A stretch of 64,000 nt of DNA from Photorhabdus thracensis. GTDB lineage: Bacteria > Pseudomonadota > Gammaproteobacteria > Enterobacterales > Enterobacteriaceae. Positions 12,041 to 56,610 of the stretch are shown here, piece after piece. The stretch covers positions 1 through 64,000 of the forward strand of contig NZ_CP011104.1 in the NCBI RefSeq assembly GCF_001010285.1. The letters run 5' to 3'. Numbering within the stretch: position 1 is the first letter of the stretch; the number at the start of each line of letters is the position of its first letter. The notes beneath the pieces were generated by a model, which was given only the letters and a program-made list of their open reading frames with translations, was not told the DNA's origin and did no database searches. The translations under genes were made by a program, and so were the position numbers.

Positions 12041-12146
12041 GACAGTTTTCTCCATCCTGTTCCTCTGTTGCTTCGGCTACGCTACCGCCCATAGCCGTAT
12101 ACCGAGGCCCATAAGGTCATGATTTGTTTTGTTTTTTAGGGTTTTT

Positions 12147-24552: not shown

Positions 24553-24652
24553 GATAATACCCGTCCGTCATTAAAGCGAAGAAACAGACCGCTGAATCTT
24601 TCTGAAGAAGAAGTTGCCACTGCTTCAGAAAGAAAATGGAGTTATGTTTTAT

Positions 24653-25645: not shown

Positions 25646-25657
25646 ATCCGCTCCAAT

Positions 25658-27001: not shown

Positions 27002-27027
27002 AAATACCTCTGGAAAAATTGTATAAG

Positions 27028-28503: not shown

Positions 28504-28506
28504 ATC

Positions 28507-29538: not shown

Positions 29539-29559
29539 AACGTCACCTTCAACTTACCA

Positions 29560-40600: not shown

Positions 40601-43600
40601 TGGATACACAACGCCTCAGGATACACGGTTTCCGTGGCGTTCCAGGTTTTTAACAGCAATGTACGTTCCGCTTCCGGCAGGATGTTCAGTGCCCGAACGG
40701 GCATTTCCGGGACTTGCTCAAGCGCCTCCACCAGACTTTCCAGTGCCTGCTGCATATAACCGCATATCCTTTCCGGATCAAACGGTTGCACTACCTGAGC
40801 CGTCAGCCCCAGGGATTCAGCAAAATCCTCCACCGACAGCACAAACGGATAGTTGGTCCGCTCCTGTTCACTCAGGAATTCAATGCCGTCCATTGTTTCA
40901 TCCAGCGGATCCGGTTGAACATTATGTCGATAGTTCAACAGGGCACTGAAGAGGGGCGTACCGCTGGCAATCCCACTGCACTGCTGGGCCAGCGCCAGTG
41001 ACGCATGTTCATGCGCTAATAATCCGGCCAGTCGGGTATGGGCGGCCTGCACGCTGTCCCGTACCGGCGTATCATCGATATCCAGCTGCAACGGCAAGGT
41101 ATTAATAAACAGCCCCATACCATTGTCGGCGCTGTCCCCTGCCTGCATCCGTCCAAACAACACCGTGCCAAATACCACTTTCTCCTGCCCGCTGGTACGC
41201 GACAACACCTGAGCCCAGGCCAGATGACACAGGGCTGCCAAACTGACCCCCAAATGCCGGGCCTGACTGCGCAGACGATCATTCAGCTCAGGCACTAACA
41301 TCCGGTGAAATTCCGTCACCTGTGAGCCGTCGCGGTGCACCTCTGTCAGCCCGAATGGCAACGTGGGTTCATCTACCGCCGCCAGCATCCCGGTAAAGAA
41401 ACGGGTATGCGCTTCCTGACTCACCCCCAACCGGGCCTGCGCCACCAAATTGCGGAAAGGAACCGGTGCAGGCAAGCTATCCGCCTGACCAGTAAGGTAT
41501 GCCTGTACTTCACGGTGCATCACTTCCATTGTTTCATGGTCGCCAATCAGGTGATGCAGCAATTGCAAGACAATCCAACGGCCATCGGTCTCCTGCGCCA
41601 CCACAAAACGTAATAACGGCGCTTCGCTCAGGTCAAGACGATGATAACGCGGATCAAAACGCCGGGTTAACTGGTCACTCACCGGACCGTCAACCGGGTT
41701 CAGCGTCAGCTCAGTCACCGACAATTGGGCCTGACGCCAAACCACCTGCGCCGGCACTGACAATCCTTGCCAGATAAAAGCCGTGCGTAAGATATCGTGC
41801 CGATCAACCGCCCGTTGAACCGCTGCCAGATAACGATCTAACAGAGACCGGTCAGCAAAGGCCATCTGACCCGTCAATAGATACGGATCCCCTTCGTTCG
41901 CCAGCAAGTGGTGGAATAAGATACCGTCCTGCAACGGCGACAGGGCATAGATATCCTGAATATTGGCTATCCCGCCCGGCACCTGTTCAACGATACGGTC
42001 AATCTCAGCCTGAGTCAGATCAATCAGCGGCAACATCGCCGGCGTCAGTGTCGTGGCTGCCGGGGTGATGACGTTAGGCGGCACGGTCACAGCCTGGTGC
42101 TGTCCCAATGACCGGGCCAGTTCAAACAGCACCGGAAACTGGAACAGATCACGCGCCGTCAGTGTCAATCCCAGATGACGCAGGCGTTCAACCATCCGTA
42201 TCGCGAGCAGCGAATGACCACCCAAAGCGAAGAAACTGTCATGCCGGCTAACCTGTTCAATCCCCAGTAATTCACGCCAAATCGCCGCCAGGGCCATTTC
42301 CGTTTCGCCTTGCGGCGCGGCGTAAACTTGATAAGCAAAGGCTTCATTGTCCGGTGCCGGCAATGCCCGGCGATCCAATTTACCGTTAGGAGTCAATGGA
42401 AATGCATCCAGACGCACAAAGGCCGACGGCACCATATAGTCAGGTAAAATAGCACTCAGGTGGGCACGCAGGCTGTTCACCAGCCCATCATCTGCTGGCG
42501 CCACCACATAGGCCACCAGCCGTTTATCCGGCCCTTCCCCCCGAGCCAACACAGCAACTTCATGCACAGCTGGATGTTCTGCCAGATACGCCTCAATTTC
42601 CCCCGGTTCAATGCGGAAGCCGCGGATTTTCACCTGCTGATCGTTGCGGCCCAGAAACTCCAGATTGCCGTCCGGCAGATAACGCGCCAAATCCCCGGTG
42701 CGGTACATGCGTGCATCCGGGTTATCACTGAACGGATCAACCAGGAAACGTTCTGCGGTTAACTCAGGCCGATTGAAATAACCCTGAGCAACGCCATCTC
42801 CGCCGACATAAATCTCACCGATCACCCCTGGCGGTACCGGCTGCTCATAGGCATCCAACAGATAAACACGGGTATTCGCGATTGGCCGGCCAATCGGGAT
42901 ACGGGTCACGCCCTGCGCTAACGCCACGATAGGGTATATCGTGGTAAAGGTGGTTCCCTCACTCGGGCCATAGGCCTGCAACAATTGTTGAGGCGGGCTG
43001 TCACGCAAAACCTGGGCAATCACATGTGGATCCAGCACATCGCCACCAACAATCAGAATTTTGAGCTGAGAAAGAACCGGGGACAACTCTGCCGCCAACC
43101 GGTTAAACAGCCCGATAGTCAGCCACAGCACCGTGATGCGGTGCGTCTGGAAAGCTGGTATTAACTCCTGTGGTGTCAGCAACGTGGCATGGTCGATAAC
43201 CACCAGCGCACCGCCGTTAAGCAACGGAGCCCAAACTTCAAACGTGCTGGCATCGAAAGCCGGGTTAGCGGCAAAGGCCACCCGATCGTCCGGTTCAATT
43301 TCGGCATAGCCATTATTGATGACCAACCGGACCACCGCACGATGCGGCACCACCACGCCTTTAGGCATACCCGTCGAGCCGGAGGTATACATAATATACG
43401 CTGACCCGGCGCTGGAGCGCGGTAAGCCGGGGTTGATATCATCTTCCTCGCTGCCCGGGTCTGTCTCATCCGAGAAACGCAACAGCGGAACAGCCAGATT
43501 AGCCGGAACATCAGCCCGTGTATCGGTGAGCAGCAACCTGGCTGAACAATCGCTTATCAGCCAGTTTTTCCGCTCATCCGGCACACTGGGATCTATCGGT

Positions 43601-46600
43601 ACGTAAACAGCCCCTACTTTGAGAATAGCCAACTGCGCCACCACCAGTTCCATCGATCGCTCTAACAGAATCGCAACAGGGTCATCCGGGCGAATTCCCT
43701 GTTCGATCAGCTGACGGGCCAGCCGGTTAGCACAGGCATTCAGTTCCGTATAGCTCAGAGTCTTCTCTCCCGCTATCAATGCCGTCGCCTGCGGGGTCTT
43801 CTCCACTTGCCGCTCAAATAACTGATGAACACATAACTGGTCAGGATACGCGGTTTCCGTAGCGTTCCAGGTCTCTAACAACAAGGTACGTTCCGCTTCC
43901 GGCAAGATTTCCAATGCCCGAACGGGCATGTCCGGTGCTTGCTCCAGGGCTTCCACCAGACTTTCCAGCGCCTGTTGCATATAACCGCACAGGCTTTCCG
44001 GATCAAACGGTTGCACTACCTGAGCGGTCAGCCCCAGAGTGGTGGCGCCGTCCTCTACCGACAGCACAAACGGATAGTTGGTCCGCTCCTGTTCACCCAG
44101 GAATGCAATCCCGGCCATCGTTTCATCCAGCGGATCCGGTTGAACATTATGTCGATAATTCAACAAGGCGCTAAAGAGGGGCGTACCGCTGGTAACCCCG
44201 CTGCACCGCTGGGCCAGCGCCAGTGACGCATGTTCATGGGCCAACAACCCGGCCAGTCGCAAATGCACCGCCTGCACACTGTCCCGTACCGGGGTATCAT
44301 CCATATCCAGCCGCAACGGCAGCGTATTGATAAACAACCCCATGCCATTGCCGGCACCTTCACCTGCCGCCATACGTCCAAACAGTACGGTGCCGAACAC
44401 CACTTTCTCCTGCCCGCTGGTACGCGACAACACCTGCGCCCAAGCCAGATGGCACAACGCTGCCAGACTGACGCCCAAACGCCGGGCCTGACTGCGCAGA
44501 CGGTCATTCAACCCGGCGGTCAGCATCCGGTAGGATTCCGTCTTCTGAGATCCATCACGATGCACATCCGTCAGCCCGAACGGCAGCGTCGGCTCCTCCA
44601 CCGCCGCCAGCATGTCGGTAAAGAAACGGGTATGCGCGGCCTGACTCACCCCCAACCGGGCTTCCGCCACCAGATTGCGGAAGGGAACCGGCGCAGGCAG
44701 ACTCTCCCCCTGCCCGGCAAAATACGCCTGCACTTCACGGTGCATCACTTCCATTGTTTCATGGTCGCCGATCAAGTGATGCTGCAACTCCAGTAAAAAC
44801 CAGCGGCCATCGGTTTCCTGCGCGATAACAAAATGCAACAGCGGGGCCTGATTCAGCTCAAGACGATAGTGATCCGGATCAAAACGCCGGGTTAACTGGT
44901 CAATGACCGGGCCGTCAGCCGGGTCGAGCGTCAGTTCCGTCACCGGCAAGGTCGCCTGACGCCTGACCACCTGCGCCGGCACAGATAATCCTTGCCAGAT
45001 GAAAGCAGTACGCAGAATGTCATGGCGATCAACCACCTGTTGCACCGCGTCCAGATAACGGTCCAGCAGAGCACGGTTAGCAAAGGCTACCGGATAGAGC
45101 ACCAGGTACGGGTCGCCTTCCTTTTCCAATATGTGGTGGAACAGGATACCGTCCTGCAACGGCGACAACGCATAGATATCCTGAATATTGGCTATCCCAC
45201 CCGGCACTTGGCCGACGATGTGGTCAATATCAGGCTGAGTCAGCTCAATCAGCGGCAACATCGCCGGTGTCAGCGCCGTGGTGGCCGGTGTAATGACATT
45301 GGGTGGGACTATCACGGCCTGATGCCGTCCCAACGTTTGGGCCAGGTCTGACAGCACCGGCGACTGGAACAGATCGCGCGCCGCCAGTGTCAACCCCAGG
45401 TGACGCAAGCGTTCAATCATCTGCACGCCGAGCAGTGAATGACCGCCCAACGCAAAGAAGCTGTCATGCCGGCTTATCTGCTCAATACCCAGTAACTCAC
45501 GCCAAAGAGCAGCAAGGGCGATCTCAGTCTCCCCTTGTGGAGCTTCATAAATCTGCCGGACAAAATCGTCTTCCCCCGGAGCAGGCAACGCCCGGCGATC
45601 CAGCTTGCCATTTGGGGTCTGCGGGAAGGACTCCAAGCGCACAAAGGCTGCCGGAACCATATAATCAGGTAAAATGGCACTCAGGTGGGCACGCAAATCG
45701 GACGTCAATCCCTCATGCGCTGCCGCCGCCACATAAGCAACCAAACGTTTGCCTTGCCCACTCTCCAACGCCAGCACCGCCGCTTCTTGCACCACCGGGT
45801 GTTCCAGCAACCGGGTTTCAATTTCACCCAGCTCAATACGGAAGCCACGGATTTTAACCTGCTCGTCATTACGGCCCAGGAATTCCAGATCACCGCCCGG
45901 CAGATAACGGGCCAAATCCCCGGAGCGATACATCCGCGCCCCGGCTACCGGGCTAAAAGGATCCGGTATAAAACGCTCTGCACTCAATTCCGGCCGGTTA
46001 AGATAACCGCGCGCCACCCCGACGCCACCAATATACATTTCACCCACGCAGCCTAATGGCACCGGTTGACCATATGGGTCCAACAGGTAGATGCGGGCAT
46101 TTTTAGCCGGCCGGCCAATAGAATGCGCATCGGCTGGAGATAACACGTCCTTATAGGTCACCGTCACGACATTTTCCGTCGGGCCATAACCGTTCAACAG
46201 CCGGGGCCGGTGGCCTTCCTGCCTGAACCAGTCCTGAATAGCGTTCTTTTTGACCGCCTCACCGCCAATGATGATGAGCCGGAGATCATCCGGCAGCGGT
46301 AACCCAGTATCTCTGGCCGCCAACTCAGACCAGAACAAGGTCGGCAGTGACACCACCGTAATACGATATTGCCGGGTTAAATCAATAAATTCCGGCATCG
46401 AAGCCAACCAACTGTCATCGCGAAGAACCAGCGTAGCCCCGTTACATAATGACGAGAAGAAATCTTCCACTGAAACATCAAAGGCAAAAGCGGCAAATTG
46501 CAACACCCGGTCTTGTGCCGTGACAGCATAGGTGTCATTAAAACCCAGATACCGTTGATAAATCGCCTGATGCTCTACCATCACCCCTTTCGGTTGCCCG

Positions 46601-47919
46601 GTTGAGCCGGAGGTGTAAATCACATAGGCCAGATGCTGTGGCGTCAACGTCGGGACCAATGGATTGCTGTCCGGCTGGTCTGGCTGGGTATTCGGATCAA
46701 GCACTGTCAGCCCCGCCAGCGCGACTTCACCCAATGCCACCCTCCCGGCCGCATCAGCCAGGACCACTGCCGGGGCGGTATCATTCAGAATATACGCCAG
46801 CCGTTCCCCCGGATAGGTTAAATCCAGCGGCACATAAGCGCCACCGGCTTTCAGTACCGCCAGCAAAGCCACCACCATCGCCGGCGAGCGTTCCACGCAA
46901 ATCGCCACCCGCTGGTCCGGTGTGACCCCCTGCGCAATCAGTTGATGGGCCAGACGGTTGGCCCGGCTATTCAATTCTGCATAACTGAGGATCTGCTCTT
47001 GATATTCTAACGCCGTGGCCTGCGGGGCCAGCTCTGCCTGTTGCTCAAACAGCTGATGGATACATAATGGGTCAGGATAAGGGTTTTCCGTGACGTTCCA
47101 GGTCTCCAGCAACAACGTGCGTTCCGCCTCAGACAACACATTAAGCTGTCCGACGGGGATGTCCTCACCCTGCCTTTTTGACGCAACCAGCACCTGCAAG
47201 TGTTCGCTCATCCGCTGAACCACTTCCCCGCTCAAACGATTTTCATCGTATATCCAGCGAAAACCGCCCTGTGCATTCACCTGGAGCGTCAGCAATTCAC
47301 CGGATACCTTCTGATCACACGGTGTGTCATCTTGTATCATCGAGACGGCGATCTGCCACGGCCAGCGGGTTGTCAGCGCCGGAATAGCCTGCAATGAAGG
47401 AAAGCGAATAAGGAGATCATGACTAAATGCCTGGTGCCGCGCCAACTGGACAAGCTCGTTATCAATCCAGTCAGCTACCGCTCTCCACGGCTTATCAAAC
47501 GCCACCTCAATGGTCATCGGCACCACAGGCGCCAGATCGGCCAGGTTATCGTTTTCCTTCACGCCCCAACCAATTTGGAATTCGGTTTGCTGAGTCAGGC
47601 GCGCAAGGTAAATGACAAATGCCTGCAACAGTGTCCGCAATGGGTCTTCTTCTCTATGTTTTGTCAATGGGGACTGCCAAAGGCTTATTGCCCATCTGGG
47701 CTCCGCTTGCTCCCCGACGGTCTCGAAAGGTAACTGGAGCGGTTGCAAAGCGGCAAGGCGCTCATACCAGAATAATTCACCGGGTGTGAGCGCTTTGAGA
47801 ATATTCTTTGTATTTTTAGTCTGTGATGAAGCGTCATTTGCGCTGATTATGTTTTCTGATGTCTGAGAGAGGAATTCAGCGTTAAGAGCACTTCCTGCTT
47901 GAGCAATGCTATCTTTCAT
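31609..47919 (-). CDS. Five-module nonribosomal peptide synthetase with terminal thioesterase
   Basis: 5436 aa, GGAG six bases before the ATG. Residues 1-265 resemble the C-terminal half of a condensation domain without an HHxxxDG motif. Then A1 (about 280-780), T1 (serine near 826), C2 (HHLIGDH near 1048), A2, T2 (near 1900), C3 (near 2125), A3, T3 (near 2976), C4 (near 3200), A4, T4 (near 4053), C5 (HHIVSDG near 4243), A5, T5 (near 5106) and TE (GYSSGG near 5235, His in PGNHASL). Hand-read ten-residue pocket codes: A1 DVESIGGVTK, A2 DAFWIGATFK, A3 DAFWIGGTFK, A4 DVESIGTVTK, A5 DAATIAIVAK. A3 equals the known Val code and A2 differs by one residue. A1 and A4 are unassigned, with an acidic residue at position 239 hinting at a basic substrate. 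A5 is unassigned. No E, MT or Cy domain is seen. Predicted product: a pentapeptide X-Val-Val-X'-Y, linear or cyclised by the TE. Confidence 0.95.
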   Translation of the reverse strand: MKDSIAQAGSALNAEFLSQTSENIISANDASSQTKNTKNILKALTPGELFWYERLAALQPLQLPFETVGEQAEPRWAISLWQSPLTKHREEDPLRTLLQAFVIYLARLTQQTEFQIGWGVKENDNLADLAPVVPMTIEVAFDKPWRAVADWIDNELVQLARHQAFSHDLLIRFPSLQAIPALTTRWPWQIAVSMIQDDTPCDQKVSGELLTLQVNAQGGFRWIYDENRLSGEVVQRMSEHLQVLVASKRQGEDIPVGQLNVLSEAERTLLLETWNVTENPYPDPLCIHQLFEQQAELAPQATALEYQEQILSYAELNSRANRLAHQLIAQGVTPDQRVAICVERSPAMVVALLAVLKAGGAYVPLDLTYPGERLAYILNDTAPAVVLADAAGRVALGEVALAGLTVLDPNTQPDQPDSNPLVPTLTPQHLAYVIYTSGSTGQPKGVMVEHQAIYQRYLGFNDTYAVTAQDRVLQFAAFAFDVSVEDFFSSLCNGATLVLRDDSWLASMPEFIDLTRQYRITVVSLPTLFWSELAARDTGLPLPDDLRLIIIGGEAVKKNAIQDWFRQEGHRPRLLNGYGPTENVVTVTYKDVLSPADAHSIGRPAKNARIYLLDPYGQPVPLGCVGEMYIGGVGVARGYLNRPELSAERFIPDPFSPVAGARMYRSGDLARYLPGGDLEFLGRNDEQVKIRGFRIELGEIETRLLEHPVVQEAAVLALESGQGKRLVAYVAAAAHEGLTSDLRAHLSAILPDYMVPAAFVRLESFPQTPNGKLDRRALPAPGEDDFVRQIYEAPQGETEIALAALWRELLGIEQISRHDSFFALGGHSLLGVQMIERLRHLGLTLAARDLFQSPVLSDLAQTLGRHQAVIVPPNVITPATTALTPAMLPLIELTQPDIDHIVGQVPGGIANIQDIYALSPLQDGILFHHILEKEGDPYLVLYPVAFANRALLDRYLDAVQQVVDRHDILRTAFIWQGLSVPAQVVRRQATLPVTELTLDPADGPVIDQLTRRFDPDHYRLELNQAPLLHFVIAQETDGRWFLLELQHHLIGDHETMEVMHREVQAYFAGQGESLPAPVPFRNLVAEARLGVSQAAHTRFFTDMLAAVEEPTLPFGLTDVHRDGSQKTESYRMLTAGLNDRLRSQARRLGVSLAALCHLAWAQVLSRTSGQEKVVFGTVLFGRMAAGEGAGNGMGLFINTLPLRLDMDDTPVRDSVQAVHLRLAGLLAHEHASLALAQRCSGVTSGTPLFSALLNYRHNVQPDPLDETMAGIAFLGEQERTNYPFVLSVEDGATTLGLTAQVVQPFDPESLCGYMQQALESLVEALEQAPDMPVRALEILPEAERTLLLETWNATETAYPDQLCVHQLFERQVEKTPQATALIAGEKTLSYTELNACANRLARQLIEQGIRPDDPVAILLERSMELVVAQLAILKVGAVYVPIDPSVPDERKNWLISDCSARLLLTDTRADVPANLAVPLLRFSDETDPGSEEDDINPGLPRSSAGSAYIMYTSGSTGMPKGVVVPHRAVVRLVINNGYAEIEPDDRVAFAANPAFDASTFEVWAPLLNGGALVVIDHATLLTPQELIPAFQTHRITVLWLTIGLFNRLAAELSPVLSQLKILIVGGDVLDPHVIAQVLRDSPPQQLLQAYGPSEGTTFTTIYPIVALAQGVTRIPIGRPIANTRVYLLDAYEQPVPPGVIGEIYVGGDGVAQGYFNRPELTAERFLVDPFSDNPDARMYRTGDLARYLPDGNLEFLGRNDQQVKIRGFRIEPGEIEAYLAEHPAVHEVAVLARGEGPDKRLVAYVVAPADDGLVNSLRAHLSAILPDYMVPSAFVRLDAFPLTPNGKLDRRALPAPDNEAFAYQVYAAPQGETEMALAAIWRELLGIEQVSRHDSFFALGGHSLLAIRMVERLRHLGLTLTARDLFQFPVLFELARSLGQHQAVTVPPNVITPAATTLTPAMLPLIDLTQAEIDRIVEQVPGGIANIQDIYALSPLQDGILFHHLLANEGDPYLLTGQMAFADRSLLDRYLAAVQRAVDRHDILRTAFIWQGLSVPAQVVWRQAQLSVTELTLNPVDGPVSDQLTRRFDPRYHRLDLSEAPLLRFVVAQETDGRWIVLQLLHHLIGDHETMEVMHREVQAYLTGQADSLPAPVPFRNLVAQARLGVSQEAHTRFFTGMLAAVDEPTLPFGLTEVHRDGSQVTEFHRMLVPELNDRLRSQARHLGVSLAALCHLAWAQVLSRTSGQEKVVFGTVLFGRMQAGDSADNGMGLFINTLPLQLDIDDTPVRDSVQAAHTRLAGLLAHEHASLALAQQCSGIASGTPLFSALLNYRHNVQPDPLDETMDGIEFLSEQERTNYPFVLSVEDFAESLGLTAQVVQPFDPERICGYMQQALESLVEALEQVPEMPVRALNILPEAERTLLLKTWNATETVYPEALCIHQLFEQQVEKTPEATALIAGEKTLSYTELNARANRLARQLIEQKVCPGDHVALLLERSMALVVAQLAILKAGGVYVPIDPSVPDERKNWLISDCSARLLLTDTQADIPANLAVPLLRFSDETDLGNEEDDINPGLLRSSAGSAYIMYTSGSTGTPKGVLVPHRAVVRLVINNGYAEIGPDDRVAFAANPAFDASTFEVWAPLLNGGALVVVDRATLLTPLEFVQVLQVQRMTVLWLSVGLFNQLAAELSPVLPQLKLLIVGGDALDPHVVGQVLSTSPPQQLLNGYGPSEGTTFTTTYRITALAQGAIRIPIGRPVANTRVYLLDTYGQLVPLGAVGEIYVGGDGVACGYLNHPELTAERFLVDPFSDNPDARMYRTGDLARYLPDGNLEFLGRNDQQVKIRGFRIELGEIEARLAEHPAVREVTVLALGEGSDKRLVAYVAATADEELMNNLRAHLSTALPDYMVPSAFVRLEAFPLTPNGKLDRHALPAPDGEAVARQVYEAPQGETEIALSVIWRELLGVEQVSRHDSFFALGGHSLLAVRMIERLRHQGLTLTARDLFQSPVLSALAQTLGRHRAVMAPANVITPATTTLIPAMLPLIDLTQPEIDSIIEQVPGGIANLQDIYALSPLQDGILFHHLLANEGDPYLLVSQMAFADRPLLDRYLAAVQQMVDRHDILRTAFIWQGLSVPAQVVWRQVPLSVTELTLDPADGPVGDQLVQRFDPRHYRIDLGQAPLLRFVVAQETDGRWFLLELLHHLIGDHTTLDVMNREVLAYLTGQEESLPAPAPFRNLVAQARLGISQEEHTRFFTNMLAAVDEPTLPFGLADVHHDGSQETTSYRMLTAGLNDRLRYQARHLGVSLAALCHLAWAQVLSHTSGQEKVVFGTVLFGRMAAGEGADNGMGLFINTLPLRLDIDDTPVRDSVRAAHLRLAGLLAHEHASLALAQRCSGVASGTPLFSALLNYRHNDQQDPLGETMDGIEFLGGQESTNYPFGLSVEDGGATLGLTASAVQPFEPDRICGYMQQALESLVEALEQAPETPIRALNILPETERTLLLETWNETETPYPEALCIHQLFEQQAEQTPQATALVYQEQTFSYAELNACANRLAHQLIALGVTPDQRVAICVARSPAMVVGLLAVLKAGGAYVPLDSAYPGERLAYILNDTAPAVVLADAVGRAALGEEVLAGLTILDPNTLPDLPDSNPQVPALTPQHLAYVIYTSGSTGQPKGVMVEHQAMYQRYLGFNETYAVTAQDRMLQFASFSFDVSVEELFSSLCHGATLVIRDDSWLTSMQEFITLIRQNRITVISLPTLFWSELVTRDKASPLPDCLRLIIIGGEAVQKRAIQVWFTQETYRPRLLNTYGPTENTVTATCKAVLSPVDDSSIGRPVKNTRIYLLDKDGQPVPLGCIGEMYIGGVGVARGYLNRPELSAERFIPDPFSPVSGARMYRTGDLARYLPDGDLEFLGRNDQQVKIRGFRVELGEIETRLLEYPAVQEAAVLAREDGQDKRLVAYVVAEANDGLVACLREHLSAILPDYMVPAAFVRLDSFPQTPNGKLDRRALPVPGEEAFARQIYEAPQGEAEIALAAIWCEVLGIEQISRHDNFFALGGHSLLAVRMMNRIAALGVELPLSVLFEMSTLTAFAEAIRVRFDEQRKILPTILPISREGALPLSFAQQRLWFLAQFEGVSDIYHISMTLRLSGQLDIVAWQQALDTLFARHEALRSIFVSVDGQPQVQLLAADRGVPLSQYDLRGVSDTETVLEHLSIGEASTSFDLSHGPLIRASLIRLTDDEYRFLLTQHHIVSDGWSVGVLISELSTLYTAFLAGQRDPLPPLAIQYPDYAAWQRQWLSAERIQAQSDYWRTMLADAPVLLDLPTDRPRPPQQSFAAGVMFIDLDAELTASLKHLSEQQGVTLFMTLLSAWAMVLSRLSGQDDLVIGTPSAGRSHQEVEPLIGFFVNTLALRIDLSDAPNVIELLARVRQTALAAQAHQDLPFEQVVEIVQPQRRLAHTPLFQVMFAWQNNESPEWELPELAVSLVDSVLETDTVKFDLELELSEENGRIVGSLGYATALFDQPTIERYVGYLHTVLQAMVVDPQQSVGGIDILTPAERRLLLENWNETETPYPDPLCIHQLFEQQVQRTPNATALVCGAETLSYAELNRRANRLAHELIAQGVIPEQRVALCVSRSTSMMIGLLAILKAGGAYVPLDPAYSGDRLRGILSDATPVMVVADAVGRTALGQDVLKGLKVLEPDTDWEQPDSNPQGLSLHSRQLAYVIYTSGTTGVPKGVMVEHRGVINLAIDHIDRLGVKPDSRVLQFASISFDASVADIVMAYGAGAALHILADDVRYDRNALWHYLDEQRITHLTLPPAVLQNAHELPPLQTHLTLIFAGEALGSALLQSLAGRYNTFNIYGPTEATVAVMAWHCPPDYQGEEIPIGRPINNTRIYLLDARGQPVPRGAVGELYIGGTGVARGYLNRSDLTAERFLDDPFSVMPGARMYRTGDLARYLSDGNLIYVGRNDQQVKIRGFRIEPGEIEARLMEYPAVRESLVVTDGKGEDKRLVAYVVADDEEGLAQHLRSHLSTRLPEYMIPSAFVRLGAFPLTRNGKLDRRALPAPDEKAVARQVYAVPRGETEIALADIWRELLGIEQVSRHDNFFALGGHSLLAIRMVNLIAGQGLICTLNALFQFPVLSELAAKITSDLLSQPQTSAIPVRPGGTALPLFFVPSGMEDYSYVYGLAQHIRSDYPVYTLPWPSISEEPMATMEEHAARMINLMKAVQPVGPYRIAGYSSGGILAYAIAQWLLHAGEEVNFLGLIDTPAPHDVSEEPVQLNHLFFAVLIKQFGEEHTEEIAALYRRIDELNLVQFIEAAQELALYPASLRPDLVAKRWEQGEHYIQIVEEYEPQALAVTLHQFYAMEPCPPNPFVADEEPKSLTMDPSLGWAQIMPDSLLQLIAVPGNHASLMENKEHRIALAQALNRALAMHCDEEAL
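39395..39528 (-). repeat. 134-bp near-identical block in A3, repeated at 42620-42753 in A2
   Basis: The two blocks are 134 bp each with a single difference (A versus G in TGCCATCC/TGCCGTCC on the plus strand). They encode the end of the adenylation domains (NPDARMYRTGDLARYLPDG, then the NDQQVKIRGFRIE region). The flanking DNA is less similar, which points to gene conversion or recent module duplication. Confidence 0.85.
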
Positions 47920-48704: not shown

Positions 48705-48990
48705 TTCTTGTTATCCTGAGTTGTTTAAAATAACAACAATATATACCAAGACGAGATCATGAAATTAAAGCTGATTAAACCAGCCTATATCATCACCAGG
48801 AAATACATTGCCATTATCAAATTTTCGATTATTTTTATCAAAATAAATATTTTCAATAATTACTCTACAACTAAATACACCGTCTAGATACCCAGAAAAT
48901 CAAAAAAACAGAATAAAATTAACAATAAAATTAGATTTAGATCACATAATAGAAAATAATAATAATAACTAATAAATACAATCAAATAAT
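48705..48990 (-). repeat. Leader region copy A (homologous to 56340-56610)
   Basis: Shares an ordered series of blocks with copy B upstream of the cupin-HDO gene: CGAGATCATGAA, CCTATATC, CAGGAAATACATT, an AAATA-CG stretch, and TTTAG-TCACATAA. Spacing is conserved with small indels over about 260 bp. Duplicated promoter or leader DNA is the simplest reading. Confidence 0.7.
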
Positions 48991-49106: not shown

Positions 49107-49405
49107 CCATGTTACAGCACCTCCCCATCACAATGCATTGCCAACGTCCTATTCAGAGCCTGAGCTAAAACCGTTTTATTTTCATTATTTTCCAATAAAC
49201 TAAAATAGTTACCCAGAATAACAATCAATCGAAGTGAAAAATCAAACATTATCTTACTGACTATTTGCGCATAACACGCTATCTGCTCCCAACGTTTTGC
49301 AATTAGATCATGACGGGATATAACGCCAATTCTTGTGCATCTTCAATAAACTGAACAAAATTCAGCTCATCAATTCACCAGTACAAAACTGCAACCTCTT
49401 CTGAG
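49107..49405 (-). pseudogene. Decayed 3' end of a second NRPS gene (thioesterase C-terminus)
   Basis: Strong nucleotide similarity to the NRPS end. TTACAGCACCTCCCCATCAC matches 31609 onward with two changes, followed by CAATGCATTGCCAACG and CTATTCAGAGCCTGAGCTAAA. After an internal deletion of roughly 130 bp, further shared blocks are CTGCTCCCAACGTTT, CGGGATATAACGCCAATTC, CTTCAATAAACTG and AAATTCAGCTCATCAATTC, up to the equivalent of about 32038. Frame is lost. Homology stops about 9 bp before the MFS stop codon at 49414, giving a sharp junction. Confidence 0.85.
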
Positions 49406-49413
49406 AAAACTCT

Positions 49414-50736
49414 CTATTTATTCCTTCTATAACTTACATCTTTAAATATCAATGTCGCAGCAGCTAAAATGACTGGAATGGATAAGATTGCAAAAATAGT
49501 GCTGTGATTTAATCCAAATCTGATAAGTTCTGCCCCAAATAAAGCCCCACAGATCCCGCCTAATCTTCCAAATCCTAACATCCAGGCAACACCAGTTGCT
49601 CTACAATTAGTCGGATAAAATTGTGCTGCAATTGCTCCCATTGATGCCTGTGCGCCATTCATTGTTGTCCCTGCAAGAAATATTAAGATACTCAATAAAA
49701 ATACATTTTCTCCCTGACCAATAGAAAAGACCAAAATACCAGTAAGAACATAATTAGTTGCTACTACCTTGTGAGGATTAACCCGATCCATTAACCAACC
49801 AGAGAAAACAACGCCTATTCCACCACCCAAAGGAAATAATGCCGTAAGCACTGCCGCCATACTCAGGCTAAAACCAGCATCGTTCATTAAAATCGGCATC
49901 CAACTTGTCAAAACATAAAAAACCAATAATCCCATGAAATATGTTATCCATAACATTGTTGTCCCAAGTAGAAATTGACTGGACAAAATAGTTTTGATTG
50001 ACGATTTATGTATAATTTCTTCTTCATCAAATGTAAATTTCTTTACATCATTTAAAAGTCCGTTTGTCATTTTAAACAAAATTCGTCTTATATTTTCTTC
50101 TGAGTTACCTTTTATAATTAGATATTTCAATGATTCAGGCAGTAGGAAAAAGAGAAATACAGATAAAAACAGGGGTAAAAGACCACCTAAAATCAGAACA
50201 CCTTGCCATCCAAAATGTGGGATAATCCATGCAGAAAACATTCCGCCTATCGCCGCACCAAAAGGAAAGCCACAAAAAACGATATTTATTAACAAAGACC
50301 TCCGATGCTCTGGCGCATATTCAGATATCAACGTTATTGCATTTGACATTGCTGCACCAAGACCCAATCCCGTCAAAAAACGCAAAATAGTTAATGTCTG
50401 TATTGAATCAGCGGCGGCGGTAACCAAACTAAACAGACCAAAAACACCCACTGATATTGTAAGTACTGATTTTCGACCAAATCTATCAGCAAGCGGACCA
50501 GAAAAAAGCGCGCCTAATGCTAAGCCAAAAAGTGCAGCGCTCATGGCTGGCCCAAGAACCGTGCTTTCTACGTTAAAATCATTCATCACTGCGGGTGCAA
50601 TATAACCAATTAATGCTGTATCGAAACCATCAATAGTAACGATAGAGAAACACAGAATTAATACTTGCCACTGGACTTTTGAAAGTTTTTGACTATTGAT
50701 AATATTCTGGATATTAACTGTTGTAATACTATTCAT
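49414..50736 (-). CDS. AAHS-family MFS transporter (aromatic acid:H+ symporter type)
   Basis: 440 aa, twelve membrane segments. The helix 1 motif VTIDGFDTALIGYIAPAVM is the hallmark of the aromatic acid:H+ symporter family (PcaK, BenK and relatives), and GPLADRFGRKSVL is the MFS loop 2-3 motif. AAHS carriers usually import aromatic acids, but export of a product cannot be excluded. It is the last gene of the oxygenase operon, 170 bp after the TauD-type gene. The stop codon abuts the NRPS remnant. Confidence 0.85.
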   Translation of the reverse strand: MNSITTVNIQNIINSQKLSKVQWQVLILCFSIVTIDGFDTALIGYIAPAVMNDFNVESTVLGPAMSAALFGLALGALFSGPLADRFGRKSVLTISVGVFGLFSLVTAAADSIQTLTILRFLTGLGLGAAMSNAITLISEYAPEHRRSLLINIVFCGFPFGAAIGGMFSAWIIPHFGWQGVLILGGLLPLFLSVFLFFLLPESLKYLIIKGNSEENIRRILFKMTNGLLNDVKKFTFDEEEIIHKSSIKTILSSQFLLGTTMLWITYFMGLLVFYVLTSWMPILMNDAGFSLSMAAVLTALFPLGGGIGVVFSGWLMDRVNPHKVVATNYVLTGILVFSIGQGENVFLLSILIFLAGTTMNGAQASMGAIAAQFYPTNCRATGVAWMLGFGRLGGICGALFGAELIRFGLNHSTIFAILSIPVILAAATLIFKDVSYRRNK

Positions 50737-50906
50737 GTTGAATCACCGACGTCAAGGAATCCATTATTATTAATTAGGAAGATAAATCATTCAGTTAACT
50801 TCAATTAACCGCAATGTAAAATATGGATGCAAAACAGAAACTAAGATTTTATTGATAAAAGAGAGCTAATTGATTAATCCAGCCCTCTTTTAATTATAAA
50901 AGAAAC

Positions 50907-51875
50907 TCATTCAAGTTCAAATTGACGTAAGGCACGGCGATCATCCGTGTGATCATATTGGGCTACTTTGAATTTACGTAAATCTGATTGTTGAACCATT
51001 GTACTGTCACCAACAGGCCGATCACCTTTTATTGTTACTCGTTCCATCAAACGCGGATTGGGATAATAATCATGAACCGCGGCATGTTGAACAGAACGAT
51101 TATCCCAAAACACGAGCGTATTAGGTTCCCAATGATGCCTGTATTGATACTCTAAAATGGAAGTGGAACGATATAAGCTATTCAATAATTCAAAGCTCTC
51201 TCTATCATCCATGCCTTTGATATATCGAGTGTAGTGAGGATTAACAAATAAAACTTTTTTTCCAGTTACCGGATGTATACGCACTACCGGATGGCTAACG
51301 GGTGGATATTGATCTTCATTTTTACGCAGTTGTTGCCTCCCTTTATCCGTTTCAGGAAAAAGATATTTGTAAGATGCAAAATCGTGTATAGCTTCAAGCC
51401 CAGAAATAAATTGCTGCATCTTATTTGAAAGTGCGTTATAAGCGGCGGTCATACTCGAAAAGCATGTGTCCCCGCCAATTTCGGGAACAATTTTAGAATA
51501 AAGCATCGTTCCTAAAGGTGGACATTCCCGGTATGTCTCATCAGAATGCCAGCGATCAGTCAAGACAGGCGGATTACCCTCTTTATAATCAAAGACAATA
51601 AGTTCCGGAACTTCTGCTGAATTTTCCGCGAAAGGATGAACCGTCAGCTCACCAAAATAACCGCCAATTCGCAATAAGTCTTCCGCTGAAAGATTTTGGC
51701 CCGGAAAAACCAAAACTTCATGAGTAGCCAATGCATCAGATATCGCTTGAATGCATCCATCATCTAACGGTTGACTCAAATCAATGCGGGTTATCTCAGC
51801 ACAGAAATATGGACTTAGTTTACGTAAAGAAAACCTGTCCTTAATATTGCCTGTATTAATTTCATTTATGCTCAT
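50907..51875 (-). CDS. TauD/TfdA-type Fe(II)/2-oxoglutarate dioxygenase
   Basis: 322 aa. Iron ligands: His and Asp in WHSDET near residue 108, and the distal His in NRSVQHAAVHDYYP; the 2-oxoglutarate-binding Arg lies shortly after (LMERVTIKG). The N-terminus LRKLSPYFCAEITRIDLSQP and HEVLVFPGQNLSAEDLL are family-typical. Members hydroxylate taurine, 2,4-D, or amino-acid and peptide substrates; nothing here fixes the substrate. A 331-bp AT-rich gap separates it from the CoA-transferase upstream, so it may have an extra promoter. Confidence 0.85.
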   Translation of the reverse strand: MSINEINTGNIKDRFSLRKLSPYFCAEITRIDLSQPLDDGCIQAISDALATHEVLVFPGQNLSAEDLLRIGGYFGELTVHPFAENSAEVPELIVFDYKEGNPPVLTDRWHSDETYRECPPLGTMLYSKIVPEIGGDTCFSSMTAAYNALSNKMQQFISGLEAIHDFASYKYLFPETDKGRQQLRKNEDQYPPVSHPVVRIHPVTGKKVLFVNPHYTRYIKGMDDRESFELLNSLYRSTSILEYQYRHHWEPNTLVFWDNRSVQHAAVHDYYPNPRLMERVTIKGDRPVGDSTMVQQSDLRKFKVAQYDHTDDRRALRQFELE

Positions 51876-52206
51876 GTTATCACCATAATAAATTTTTAAT
51901 TAACGTTATTATTTCCAAGCCTATTATTATTGTATCTACTGCCCAGGAAATTGATGCCAAAAACATTAAAACCAATGAATATAAATCTCTCAGAATGGAT
52001 GTTGCCACAAAATTATCTGATATATCCCAAGAGGAAATCACAGTATAAAAAATTGACTCGCCCTATTAAAAATATAATCTATTTATCATTATCAAAGAAA
52101 CACGCATTAACACGAAAAAAATGCAATTAAAAATAGAATAATTAACTCTCTGTTACCTGATTTTTATAGATATAGCAGAACAGAAAAATGAGTAAAGAAA
52201 GAAATC
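51876..52206. other. 331-bp gap inside the oxygenase operon
   Basis: AT-rich. No gene or clear terminator is visible. It may contain an internal promoter for the dioxygenase and transporter genes. Confidence 0.4.
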
Positions 52207-53391
52207 TTATATTATTCCATTATTACGCAACTCAACTATTTCATCATCTTGGTAATTTAGCCACTCTTTTAAGATCACTTCAGTATGTTCTCCATGCTCT
52301 GGAGCAGCAGCCCTAACGGTTTGCATGTCACAAAAAAGACTGGAATGAAATGGTTGCCCAACTAATGATAATTGACCAAGATTGGGGTGATTAATTGAAC
52401 ATTTCATTTTCAAATGATTCATTTGCTCATCATTCATGGCTTCCTCTATCGTATACAAAGGTCCGCAAGGAATACCTACAGAATTAAGCTTTTCAATTAG
52501 TTCAGCACTTTTAAAATATTTTATTCTTTCTTTCAATTTATTCAATAATGAAGATCTATTCAAAGACCGCAGTGTAATATTGCTATATTCATGAAAATCA
52601 GCCAACTCTGGGATATCCAAAATTTTACACAAAAGTTTAAATTTCGAATCTTCAGCGGCAGCAATATTAACTTGTCCATCAGCCGTCGGAAATAACCCTG
52701 TAGGCATTAATGTTGGATGATCATTACCCATTTGGGTTGGTACATCGCCATTAGCAAGCCATCTTGCCACCTGAAAATCAAGCATTGAAATTGTAGATTC
52801 AAGTAAAGAAGTATAGACCCACTGACCTAGACCGGTTTTCTCACGATAATAAAGCGCCATTAAAACTGCCTGAGCTAACGTCATTCCCGCACTTATATCA
52901 GTGATTGCCGCACCAACACGTACGGGCCCGCTACCAGGTATACCAGTAACTGACATTAAACCTGACATTCCCTGAATAATCTGGTCTACAGCAGGTCTCG
53001 TACAATAAGGACCTGTTTGCCCAAATCCTGATATACTCCCGCAAATAATACGTTCGTTTATTGATTTCAATGAATCATAATCAAGGCCAAGCCGATATTT
53101 AACTTCAGGTCTGAAATTTTCCAGAACAACATCCGCTTTACTCACCAGTTTTTTAAAAATGCTTTGTCCATCATCTGTTTTCAAATTCAGAGACAAACTC
53201 TGCTTGTTTCTATGCAGGTTTTGGTAATCAAACCCTTCACGTGAGCCACCCATGCTGTCCCCAAGATCGGCAGGCTCTTCAATTTTAATGATTGTTGCCC
53301 CCCAATCTGCCAATAATCGGGAAGTAACAGGGCCCGCTCTATGCCGGGTAAAATCGAGAACAAGCAGATCATACATTGGTAATTGAGACAT
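52207..53391 (-). CDS. Class III CoA-transferase (CaiB/Frc family)
   Basis: 394 aa, cytoplasmic. The N-terminal LVLDFTRHRAGPVTSRLLAD and WGATIIKIEEP, the RNKQSLSLNLKTDDGQ block, and ISGFGQTGPYCTRPAVDQII with the catalytic Asp (the D of AVDQ) are typical. It transfers CoA between carboxylic acids. In this operon it could activate an aromatic or aliphatic acid as a thioester, either for degradation or to hand an acyl group to biosynthesis. It starts 94 bp after the dioxygenase beta gene. Confidence 0.88.
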   Translation of the reverse strand: MSQLPMYDLLVLDFTRHRAGPVTSRLLADWGATIIKIEEPADLGDSMGGSREGFDYQNLHRNKQSLSLNLKTDDGQSIFKKLVSKADVVLENFRPEVKYRLGLDYDSLKSINERIICGSISGFGQTGPYCTRPAVDQIIQGMSGLMSVTGIPGSGPVRVGAAITDISAGMTLAQAVLMALYYREKTGLGQWVYTSLLESTISMLDFQVARWLANGDVPTQMGNDHPTLMPTGLFPTADGQVNIAAAEDSKFKLLCKILDIPELADFHEYSNITLRSLNRSSLLNKLKERIKYFKSAELIEKLNSVGIPCGPLYTIEEAMNDEQMNHLKMKCSINHPNLGQLSLVGQPFHSSLFCDMQTVRAAAPEHGEHTEVILKEWLNYQDDEIVELRNNGII

Positions 53392-53485
53392 ATATTTTTC
53401 CTATAATGAGAATACATAGGTAAAAATTCAAATTTTCTATCTGTAAATAATGAGTAATTAATTTCCAAAAATAAATTAGAATATC

Positions 53486-53989
53486 CTAAATTGGAAATAC
53501 CATCGAATCAGGAATTACATTTGTATCTATAATACACACTCTATCTTTGAATTTTAATATATCGTCATCTTGAACTATTACGTCATGTGAACGCCCACAA
53601 ACAAGTAGTTTACTGGATTCACCATATAAACTTTCATATATCGCAAAAGATGAACATGCTTTAATGCCATAAACATTGACGTCATCTATTGAAATCAATC
53701 GTACACCACTGACGATTCGGCATTGAGATCTTCTTCGATACATAACCGTCTTTTGCAGTGCAATAGCTCTGTCCTTAATCATCTTTTGCCCATCACAGAG
53801 TACAAAACTCAGTGGAAAATTTTGATCAAAATTCTCCCTGGATGTAATTCTATAATGACTATCTTTAACAAAAAAATTTGGCCATTGTTCAATGTTACCT
53901 TCATCCAGAAACTCGTTGTAGAGGGTATAAAGCCATTGAACATCCAATGTGAGTTCACGAAATTCTGGCGTTCTATTCATTGTCTTCAT
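53486..53989 (-). CDS. Aromatic-ring dioxygenase small (beta) subunit
   Basis: About 167 aa from MKTMNRTPEFREL (a second ATG three codons later is possible). The start lies within the last codons of the alpha gene, overlapping by 17 bases. The cystatin-like beta-subunit fold is suggested by LYNEFLDEGNIEQWPNFFVKD, then SHYRITSRENFD and MYRRRSQCRIVSGVRLI. Beta subunits stabilise the alpha trimer of benzoate-, anthranilate- or salicylate-type oxygenases. Confidence 0.85.
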   Translation of the reverse strand: MKTMNRTPEFRELTLDVQWLYTLYNEFLDEGNIEQWPNFFVKDSHYRITSRENFDQNFPLSFVLCDGQKMIKDRAIALQKTVMYRRRSQCRIVSGVRLISIDDVNVYGIKACSSFAIYESLYGESSKLLVCGRSHDVIVQDDDILKFKDRVCIIDTNVIPDSMVFPI

Positions 53990-55244
53990 AACCCATAATT
54001 TTTTTATAGTATTTATAAAACCCACGAATAGCTGACTCAGTCATCATATGATCCGCATCCCCCTCTCCGTTACCCGCTTCCAGAACGGCTACTGAGTTGG
54101 GAGAAGCAGCTGAACCGATCTGAACCATTGCCAATATTTCATTATCGTCAATTGTTACCAATCCAGACGGGCCAAATAAGTTTGCCTGATATAGCCGTTT
54201 TTGAATCAATTCAGGGCTATCCGATTCATATCCGAAAAATGTCCAAGTTTTAATACATGAATCAGGCCCATCTGGTTTCACATGCCTCATCACCAAACAA
54301 TTTAATTGTTGCAAGAATATCAGATTTGGCCAAATGGTCATTACAGCCCCTGTACCATGCTCGTATTCAGATTGATACTCAATTAATCGTTTATCATTAA
54401 GACTGAAACCATTTTGAGAATTCAGCTGTTCTTTAAACTGGTCATTCTGAGCTGGCTTAAATGTTGCGGTTGAAACAAGAACACTGCTGCGTCCGTGTTT
54501 ATCTACTTTAACGTGAGTCTCTTGATCAGAGCGCCAAATACCAAAAGTCAGGAAAAATGAATGCAACAGTGCTGCATGAAATGGATCCTTTACATTTTCT
54601 ACCTGAAGCTTCCAATTTGCGTGCACTCTATGCTGCATTTTTCCAATAACACGCAATGTCTTGCCATTACATACCCGATCAAAATAAGCCAATATGCCAG
54701 GCCCCAAATACTCTTCAAACGATTCAATTTCAAAACTGAAACTTGCAAAAACAACGCCATTCCGCTCTGTTACATTAAGTTGTTCTAATCCATGTTCAGT
54801 TGAATCAAAGCATGGTGACATCCCTCCCTTTCCATCAATACCCCGACGAAAAGGCATACCAACAAGAGTACCATCAAGATTAAAAGACCACTCATGATAA
54901 GGACATGTAAATAATTTCACATTCCCCCGCTCTTGGTGACATATCTGAGCGCCTCTATGTGTACAACGATTCACAAATACTCTCAGTTTATTTCTTCTGT
55001 CCCTCACAAGAATTACTGGAACTTCACCTACGAATGTTTGAATAAAATCACCGATGTCCTTTACTTCAGTGGTTAAACCAACATAATTCCAAGTTCGGCT
55101 TTTGAAAATATAATTTTGTTCCCGATTATAAATTTCACGATCTGTATATACCTCAAACGGCACCCGACGAGGCCCCTCAATCGACCATTTCAACGTCAGC
55201 TCCTTTTCCTGATTCCTCAGTTTGCTTATTTGTTGAATGCTCAT
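53973..55244 (-). CDS. Rieske non-heme iron oxygenase alpha subunit (salicylate/anthranilate-hydroxylase type)
   Basis: 423 aa from the ATG. Rieske cluster: CTHRGAQICH followed by LFTCPYHEW, matching C-x-H-x17-C-x2-H. Mononuclear iron site: KDPFHAALLH. The overall layout (FFGYESDSPELIQKRL near the C-terminus, DADHMMTESAIRGFYKYY at the end) resembles salicylate 5-hydroxylase large subunits as I recall them. It normally needs a ferredoxin and reductase, and none is encoded in this operon. The ATG overlaps the cupin-HDO gene by 68 bp and lacks a ribosome site; an in-frame TTG at 55193 has AAGGAG six bases upstream. Confidence 0.88.
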   Translation of the reverse strand: MSIQQISKLRNQEKELTLKWSIEGPRRVPFEVYTDREIYNREQNYIFKSRTWNYVGLTTEVKDIGDFIQTFVGEVPVILVRDRRNKLRVFVNRCTHRGAQICHQERGNVKLFTCPYHEWSFNLDGTLVGMPFRRGIDGKGGMSPCFDSTEHGLEQLNVTERNGVVFASFSFEIESFEEYLGPGILAYFDRVCNGKTLRVIGKMQHRVHANWKLQVENVKDPFHAALLHSFFLTFGIWRSDQETHVKVDKHGRSSVLVSTATFKPAQNDQFKEQLNSQNGFSLNDKRLIEYQSEYEHGTGAVMTIWPNLIFLQQLNCLVMRHVKPDGPDSCIKTWTFFGYESDSPELIQKRLYQANLFGPSGLVTIDDNEILAMVQIGSAASPNSVAVLEAGNGEGDADHMMTESAIRGFYKYYKKIMGYEDNE

Positions 55245-56331
55245 CTGAATTGTGCACTACCAGATCAGCAATTCGCCCCATAACAGACATCAACATAGAC
55301 CAGCCTTGACGTTGAATTTCAAATAATCGTTCTCCGTCACTCAAAGGTATATTTCGTAAGAATTCATAACCCATTGCCATATGCTCATCATCAGTGATTG
55401 TATGAATATCAAAATGATCTCCAGTGGCAGTGGATGCCATCTCAGGCTGAATATGCTTATAGAAGAAAGTTGCTGAGGCTTCGACAACTAAGTGAACCAA
55501 AACAACTTTTTCAATATCACTAATTGAATTCATTTTCCAGGGAAACCACGCACTTGTGGATTCAAGAACCGGATCAAATACAGTTTGAAGATCTGTTCGA
55601 TTCTTCGCTAAAATACGGTTATGGCCTAACTCTTCAATCAAATGAAGCCAAGCCAATTCTTCGAATTTAGGATCCTGTAACGTTATTACCCGCGCCAGAA
55701 CCATTTTTTGAAAATGGTTCGACCAAACTTGGAAACAATCCAGAAATCTTTTCTTGGCTTCAGGATTTTTAAGCAATCCTTTCCGCACAAGCGCGAATAA
55801 ACGATGTTTGTCAAATCTATCCATATATTTTTCATTGAGCTGGAACAGTTGTTCAGCAATATTTTTATCACCCACCTTCTCTAATTTCATTTCAGGATAA
55901 AAGACTGCCCATGGATCAGTGATATCTTCGTATAAACCGCGAGAATCGAATTGGATTGAAAGACCCCAAAATCCATTAGGTTCCATCCCCTTAAATCCAT
56001 GTAGTTTACCTGGCGGCACTAAAAGAATATCTCCGGCATTCATATCAGCCTTTACCTCACCCGTCGTATGTGCTCCACCTTCACACATTAATATCATTGA
56101 TTCGACTGGATGAGTGTGCTCATTTAATTCTTCACCTGCTTCCAAACGTACCCATGCCATAGAAATACGATTATCGCTAGGAAGAAAACGGACAAGAGAT
56201 TTATTCTTCATAAAATCTTTAACATGCCCTAACCAATGTTCAACACCATCAACTTCAATTGTTCTCATTGATGGAATTTCATCTCGTTTAACCAACGTAA
56301 TATCAGATAATTTATTCATTTTTATTCTCAC
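55177..56331 (-). CDS. Cupin / heme-oxygenase-like diiron oxidase (HDO) fusion
   Basis: 384 aa. Residues ~55-135 form a cupin: EHTHPVESMILMCEGG, then MNAGDILLVPPGKLHGFKG. Residues ~165-350 form an all-helical heme-oxygenase/TenA-like domain: ELAWLHLIEELGHN, then VVEASATFFYKHIQPE, then HTITDDEHM, an HxxxDxxH signature of HDO iron ligands. Diiron HDO enzymes carry out unusual oxidations (N-oxygenation, C-C cleavage, desaturation). The coupling to a cupin in one chain suggests a single enzyme with two metal sites, or a cupin that binds the substrate. It ends in a hydrophilic tail (EHSTNKQTEESGKGADVE). It is the first gene of the operon, directly behind leader copy B. Confidence 0.75.
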   Translation of the reverse strand: MRIKMNKLSDITLVKRDEIPSMRTIEVDGVEHWLGHVKDFMKNKSLVRFLPSDNRISMAWVRLEAGEELNEHTHPVESMILMCEGGAHTTGEVKADMNAGDILLVPPGKLHGFKGMEPNGFWGLSIQFDSRGLYEDITDPWAVFYPEMKLEKVGDKNIAEQLFQLNEKYMDRFDKHRLFALVRKGLLKNPEAKKRFLDCFQVWSNHFQKMVLARVITLQDPKFEELAWLHLIEELGHNRILAKNRTDLQTVFDPVLESTSAWFPWKMNSISDIEKVVLVHLVVEASATFFYKHIQPEMASTATGDHFDIHTITDDEHMAMGYEFLRNIPLSDGERLFEIQRQGWSMLMSVMGRIADLVVHNSDEHSTNKQTEESGKGADVEMVD

Positions 56332-56339
56332 TTGTTATT

Positions 56340-56610
56340 TAAAATACAAATAATTTCACCAAAGCGAGATCATGAAGTACAAAATAACTAAATTAACCTA
56401 TATCGCTATCAGGAAATACATTACTACTCCCATTTCTCCGCTTAGATCTTTTTAGTCATTAGTACGAAAAGATTCACAATTAAATATACGATTAAGATAA
56501 CAAATAATCAACAAACAAAATAAAATAAATAATAAAGTTCGATTTAGCTCACATAACTAAAAATCACAAAATAGATAATAAGTAAAAAAAGTATCAAAAT
56601 AAAAGAACAA
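56340..56610 (-). repeat. Leader region copy B (homologous to 48705-48990)
   Basis: Lies just upstream of the cupin-HDO start. It shares with copy A the blocks GCGAGATCATGAAG, CCTATATC, TCAGGAAATACATT and TTTAGCTCACATAAC in the same order and spacing. It presumably contains the operon promoter. Confidence 0.7.

Follow-up and report, generated by a model that had tools for sequence, protein, structure and literature searches.

Positions 1–64,000 of contig NZ_CP011104.1 from Photorhabdus thracensis (hereafter, the window; genome size 5.15 Mb) contain a cluster of six minus-strand open reading frames between 49414 and 56331, in agreement with an earlier description made from the DNA letters alone (the original prediction). 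They encode a fusion of a cupin with a heme-oxygenase-like diiron (HDO) domain, the alpha and beta subunits of a Rieske oxygenase, a class III coenzyme A (CoA) transferase, a TauD/TfdA-family oxygenase and an AAHS-type carrier of the major facilitator superfamily (MFS) (Table 1). Except for the HDO part, domain and family matches agree with these names, and three classes of iron oxygenase, a CoA-transferase and an aromatic-acid-type carrier do lie side by side. As had also been proposed, this gene set could be matched to no known pathway. The conserved core of the cluster consists of the cupin-HDO fusion and the Rieske pair, which together form a real unit in two distant genera.

Table 1. Genes of the cluster and other features of the window discussed in the text.
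Feature	Positions	Strand	Remarks
Cupin-HDO fusion	55177..56331	-	PF07883 E 5.5e-7; cupin at residues ~12-127 (N-terminal), heme-oxygenase-like diiron domain at residues ~155-365 (C-terminal)
Rieske oxygenase alpha, salicylate-5-hydroxylase-like	53973..55244	-	PF00355 and PF00848
Rieske oxygenase beta	53486..54025	-	PF00866 E 9e-7; AndAd model 102.9 bits, cut-off 230
Class III (CaiB/BaiF) CoA-transferase	52207..53391	-	PF02515 E 3.6e-106
TauD/TfdA-family 2-oxoglutarate oxygenase	50907..51875	-	PF02668 E 5e-69; alignment to TauD 1gqw
AAHS-type MFS transporter	49414..50736	-	TIGR00895 413.6 bits, just under cut-off 418.55
Homologue of the stretch directly preceding a widely kept transporter gene	51823..52026	-	Overlaps the tauD start
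Remnant of the 3' end of a non-ribosomal peptide synthetase (NRPS) gene	49115..49407	-	tblastn to NRPS residues 5293-5436, E 4.6e-24, two pieces
Direct-repeat copy upstream of the cupin-HDO gene	56334..56587	.	~260 bp; 70% to 48720-48981
Second direct-repeat copy, between AAHS and NRPS	48720..48981	.
Neighbouring NRPS	31609..47919	-	5436 aa; five adenylation motifs; not counted in the pathway

The front genes are tightly packed: taken at their longest, the frames of cupin-HDO and alpha share 68 nt and those of alpha and beta 53 nt; the start of beta is uncertain, its longest frame being the one that overlaps alpha. Gaps of 94 nt (beta-CaiB), 331 nt (CaiB-tauD) and 170 nt (tauD-AAHS) are found further along. 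The close spacing at the front is as originally described, but the operon of all six genes is only putative: because the 331-nt gap includes a stretch found at other loci immediately before a transporter gene, tauD and the AAHS gene may constitute a separate unit. The cluster genes are AT-rich (GC content 34–40%, against 48% for the whole window). In comparison with Photorhabdus tasmaniensis, five of the six have ratios of non-synonymous to synonymous substitution (dN/dS) of 0.13–0.21, and thus evolve under purifying selection; the AAHS gene was left out of this calculation, its P. tasmaniensis copy being truncated (250/440 residues; strain T327, locus L006, 14522–15274). Counterparts of all six genes, 38–69% identical and collinear, are present in the Photorhabdus genomes G203 and G204. 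Given these ratios and counterparts, the six frames are not chance frames.

The cupin-HDO query matched six of the 12 Photorhabdus genomes. Four of them (P. thracensis, G207, G203 and G204) carry the order cupin-HDO, alpha, beta, CaiB, TauD and AAHS; in G203 and G204 a gene for a CynX/NimT-like MFS protein stands between CaiB and TauD, giving these clusters two transporters. The P. tasmaniensis T327 locus encodes the alpha subunit at 96% identity and has the same sequence as contig 33 of G207 across the 20 kb compared, so that G207 was read through it. The two remaining genomes (G199 and G200) contain a cupin-HDO relative that is 26–28% identical, while G201, with no cupin-HDO match, retains the CynX-TauD-AAHS end alone on a 6.3-kb contig. 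The idea of a CynX-like gene lost from the 331-nt gap is not supported (best tblastn E 0.12 in the window; blastn match of only 27 nt). When the contig collection was scanned with the Rieske alpha subunit, the P. tasmaniensis locus and four Pseudoalteromonas loci were returned, and all four of the latter encode cupin-HDO, alpha, beta and a flavoprotein resembling flavin-containing monooxygenases, in this order. CaiB, TauD and the transporters are Photorhabdus additions to the core. Four of 198 genomes of the same family matched the cupin-HDO protein, most of its length being covered only in P. thracensis itself and in G105 (39%). Seven of 369 genomes of the class did so: P. thracensis, four with the HDO part alone, one with the cupin alone and G527 with the two parts as separate pieces. 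At phylum level, 60 of 398 genomes were matched by the profile and, P. thracensis apart, only through the cupin part among the matches listed.

The 3-His cupin site of the fusion protein (H72/H74/H111) is unchanged across seven relatives, as are the diiron ligands (E234/H237/E284/H310/D314/H317), which are also unchanged in 10 HDO domains. Pfam gives no match for the HDO region of this protein, and three stand-alone HDO relatives match PF14518 slightly under its cut-off. The predicted structure, a low-confidence model with a mean predicted local distance difference test (pLDDT) score of 50.5, resembles heme-oxygenase-like proteins. Taken together, the stand-alone relatives, the invariant ligands and this model point to a heme-oxygenase-like fold in the C-terminal region. 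SznF was absent among the best 50 rows of the structure comparison made with the low-confidence model. SznF chains of the PDB gave no sequence match to the whole protein (E<=1) or to the HDO profile (E<=10), a test that is blind at this distance, as no other HDO was matched either; the single PDB match of the HDO-domain profile was unrelated (E 0.8). Comparison of the model with a viral structure library gave template-modelling scores to the query of at most 0.22 among the matches listed, which is not interpretable.

The best solved relative of the Rieske alpha subunit is NagG (7c8z, E 2.3e-116), followed by 7vju and terephthalate dioxygenase. The subunit contains the Rieske 2Fe-2S motif, and its R320 aligns with NagG R323 and TphA2 R309, described in PMC9060491 as the arginine that holds the substrate carboxylate. 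This arginine is present in 11 of the 12 alpha sequences compared, including all five plasmid-borne relatives, the exception being HcaE of P. thracensis. The Rieske protein, therefore, looks aryl-carboxylate-directed. Catalytic and metal-binding residues look intact. The AndAc and AndAd equivalog models scored under their cut-offs (385.5 vs 750 and 102.9 vs 230 bits). At position 256, all six module members have Leu, whereas all five plasmid relatives have Met. A FastTree tree of the alpha subunits placed the six module members together (support 0.975) and four NagG-type sequences apart (0.999); HcaE grouped with the module side (0.914), which leaves the root of the tree open.

Neither the frame list nor the domain search revealed a ferredoxin or reductase gene among the cluster genes. 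In contrast, all four of the relatives read in other genera within the family have a ferredoxin-like gene after beta. Genes for a 2Fe-2S reductase-type protein and a ferredoxin adjoin alpha/beta in three of the five plasmid relatives and lie around an insertion sequence element in a fourth (L115); the 2Fe-2S gene is named a reductase in L113 only. The P. thracensis genome has a 3-phenylpropionate set (HcaE, HcaF, HcaC, HcaB and HcaD, all over the NCBIfam cut-offs), in which HcaC and HcaD are plausibly the electron donors for the Rieske pair.

The solved relatives of the CaiB protein are formyl-CoA transferase and succinate-hydroxymethylglutarate CoA-transferase. In all four sequences compared, an Asp is found in the ITDISAG/IADISSG stretch, which we take to be the catalytic Asp of the CaiB/BaiF family. 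In the TauD protein, aligned to 1gqw, the iron ligands H110, D112 and H264 are kept, together with H80, R275 and R279; A83 and T106 occupy the sites of TauD Y73 and N95, presumably those that bind the amine of taurine. Considering both the kept and the replaced residues, the substrate is expected to be an anion, though probably not taurine, whose use is not favoured by this alignment; the taurine dioxygenase equivalog scored 265.9 bits against a cut-off of 313. The window AAHS protein is only 53–54% identical to the cluster AAHS proteins of G203, G204 and G201, but shows 78–82% identity to a widely kept paralogous transporter (G000:C1:129893), which was present in 10 of the 11 Photorhabdus genomes examined. 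The AAHS gene was, thus, swapped in the lineage of the window.

The neighbourhoods of other cupin-HDO relatives were also compared. In Embleya, the gene lies near a ketosynthase (our reading of an open frame), FabG, a FAD enzyme and benzoate-CoA-ligase-like and PaaZ-like proteins, the last two below cut-off. The G199 relative is near methyltransferase, deformylase, NRPS and polyketide synthase genes (L029 9662–20000 and L111), and that of G200 is near a deformylase gene. In G105 (L031 8163–12159), the fusion gene has a HisC-like aminotransferase gene on one side and a gene for a fused PheS/PheT-like protein on the other, with a SnoaL-like gene next; in G527, where cupin and HDO are split, they adjoin a HisC-like gene. 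In G455, G237 and G359, the gene immediately ahead of an HDO-only gene encodes a styrene-monooxygenase-like flavoprotein, and 16 genomes searched around G237 include six with an HDO (G237 being one of the six), five of which have this order. These flavoprotein-HDO pairs (L034–L036, L122–L125 and L127) occur in genomes of the same class of 1.4–2.0 Mb. Overall, the contexts lean towards biosynthesis, as far as distant relatives can indicate.

We tentatively favour the reading that these genes encode an accessory pathway for oxidising an aromatic (aryl) carboxylic acid, a proposal that falls somewhat short of even odds. In such a pathway, the AAHS protein would carry the acid across the membrane, and the Rieske pair would hold an aromatic monocarboxylate via R320 and hydroxylate its ring with electrons borrowed from other proteins, plausibly those of the 3-phenylpropionate system. 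The cupin-HDO protein could then perform a second O2-dependent oxidation, or a rearrangement, of the Rieske product. In Photorhabdus, CaiB might transfer CoA onto the acid or onto a diacid derived from it, and the TauD protein might hydroxylate an anionic intermediate. Because several cupin-HDO relatives adjoin biosynthesis-type genes, we lean towards a role in making a small, oxidised metabolite of aromatic type over one in growth on the acid. A more specific version, to which we give a low probability, would make the cupin-HDO protein a two-site oxidase with the logic of SznF in reversed order: the Rieske pair would supply an amino-aryl carboxylate, the HDO domain would N-oxygenate it and the 3-His cupin would rearrange the product by N-O or N-N chemistry, yielding an N-oxidised or nitroso aromatic acid. 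Such a route, if true, would be one not previously described.

Several points weigh against this proposal. The four Pseudoalteromonas loci yielded no match to CaiB, TauD or AAHS, and the AAHS protein may be dispensable, as its gene was swapped in the window lineage and is cut short in P. tasmaniensis. Carriers of the AAHS type usually serve as importers in catabolic pathways, a point in favour of degradation, and the Embleya gene adjoins a PaaZ-like protein, a degradation-type name. The cupin-HDO relatives outside the module are 26–39% identical, so their contexts may not be transferable, and the mean pLDDT of the HDO model is low. Finally, the beta subunit is only ~39% identical between the window and G203, and the alpha tree comprises 12 sequences only.

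Degradation of an aromatic acid was one of the two functions that the original prediction put forward. In a catabolic cluster, AAHS would import the acid, the Rieske pair would hydroxylate it, the cupin-HDO protein would open the ring and CaiB would activate the resulting diacid with CoA. We consider this possible but rather unlikely. The best AAHS model is PcaK (502.6 bits, though below its cut-off of 770), two of the Rieske relatives are located in naphthalene/salicylate or gentisate operons, and CaiB resembles small-diacid CoA-transferases. However, the electron-transfer genes that four of the five plasmid relatives carry are missing from the cluster, which also has no recognised ring-cleavage enzyme, and no ring-cleaving cupin was named among the model and PDB matches of the cupin-HDO protein. 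A search of the P. thracensis genome for gentisate dioxygenase (TIGR02272, E<=0.01) gave no match, in what is a weak test, since no control genome exceeded the model cut-off. The finding that would have told against a novel gene set, a full salicylate or anthranilate cluster including its reductase, was thus sought and not found, and a known complete cluster for salicylate, gentisate or anthranilate catabolism is rejected.

An unlikely alternative is that the cluster detoxifies or modifies an aromatic acid from the insect, the nematode or the bacterium itself, the product being exported. The patchy distribution among Photorhabdus genomes, the low GC content and the transporters, two of them in G203 and G204, would suit this role, but CaiB and TauD are atypical of detoxification.

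The other suggested function was the supply of an oxidised building block to the neighbouring NRPS. The two are adjacent in the window and in P. tasmaniensis, and the ~260-bp repeat found upstream of both could mean common regulation; elsewhere in the P. thracensis genome, matches to this repeat span at most 84 nt of the query. However, the adjacency is not conserved. No match to the window NRPS was found in 56 kb around the G203 cluster (28 kb before and 19 kb after it) or in the four 21-kb Pseudoalteromonas loci, and none in the 24-kb contig of G204, which ends 1.8 kb past AAHS and is, therefore, not decidable. Moreover, at another locus in all five genomes read (L004 of P. thracensis, L106, L107, L108 and L110), the widely kept transporter precedes an NRPS related to that of the window and the module is absent. 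The transporter and the NRPS are 4.5 kb apart in L107, and the neighbours of the pair in L004 are the lsrK and lsrR genes. Two more NRPS genes related to that of the window lie within 130 kb in P. thracensis (L005 14262–19001 and L004 1–8818).

The arrangement of the window points to how the adjacency arose. The transporter-upstream sequence at the tauD start is 70.5–77% identical, over 94–204 nt, to the sequence just upstream of the transporter at all five of these loci; in the window tauD separates it from AAHS. The stretch from AAHS to the present NRPS contains what is left of an NRPS 3' end, found in P. tasmaniensis too. The position of tauD inside an old transporter upstream region, together with this remnant, points to recombination, and the cluster is probably beside the NRPS only through DNA rearrangement. 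Traces of at least two events are visible and, given the remnant and the repeat copy between the two genes, the window AAHS did not simply keep its former NRPS partner. In the simplest reading, a transporter-NRPS segment would have recombined with the cluster and later been partly lost, the order of events being inferred. A remnant of the cupin-HDO gene was looked for below the 48720 repeat and not found (no match better than E 2.4). On the non-conserved adjacency and the signs of recombination, supply of the NRPS is very improbable and is rejected as the main function. The cluster serves as a warning that closeness to an NRPS can result from rearrangement. An ast (arginine-succinyltransferase) gene set and an amino acid permease occupy 23098–30768, just past the NRPS end, and VgrG-like and ClpV-like type VI secretion genes are located at 6972–12055, the latter named from AAA/ClpB domains.

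Within the openly licensed literature searched, the oxygenase module is undescribed: no paper joined cupin, heme oxygenase-like, Rieske, diiron and gene cluster, or Photorhabdus, cupin, dioxygenase and CoA transferase. According to PMC9177418, plu3123 corresponds to ririwpeptide and gxpS to GameXPeptide; Rieske, TauD and dioxygenase never occur in its main text.

The proposed oxidation pathway shares features with several known systems. The Rieske pair resembles NagGH, AndAc-AndAd and TphA2A3 in its alpha/beta architecture, Rieske motif and carboxylate arginine, and the alpha subunit has Trp 237 and Gln 313 as in the NagG compared. It differs from NagGH and its kin in the separate branch and the Leu at position 256, and the cluster differs in lacking ferredoxin and reductase genes and in having a cupin-HDO gene in front. 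The TauD protein shares with TauD and phenoxypropionate dioxygenase the fold family and the residues for iron and 2-oxoglutarate, but the amine-binding residues of TauD are replaced and the genomic setting is different. With UndA, AetD, BesC and CADD, the cupin-HDO protein has in common the heme-oxygenase-like fold and the ligand pattern E-x2-H, E, HxxxDxxH, a spacing that we assume UndA also to have. Unlike these stand-alone HDOs, it carries a cupin on the same chain and is linked to a Rieske oxygenase. Functions are known for only about a dozen HDOs, and SznF is set apart from the other characterized members by its cupin, as stated in PMC13108848. With SznF and StzF, which form N-nitrosourea, the window protein shares the core diiron ligand set, the union of an HDO domain with a 3-His cupin in one polypeptide and the HxxxDxxH spacing of SznF H311/D315/H318. 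However, the domain order is reversed, with the cupin at the N-terminus, and no arginine-type pathway genes are present in the cluster. A cupin-HDO protein of reversed order, kept next to a Rieske oxygenase in two distant genera, is an obvious place to look for new oxidative chemistry.

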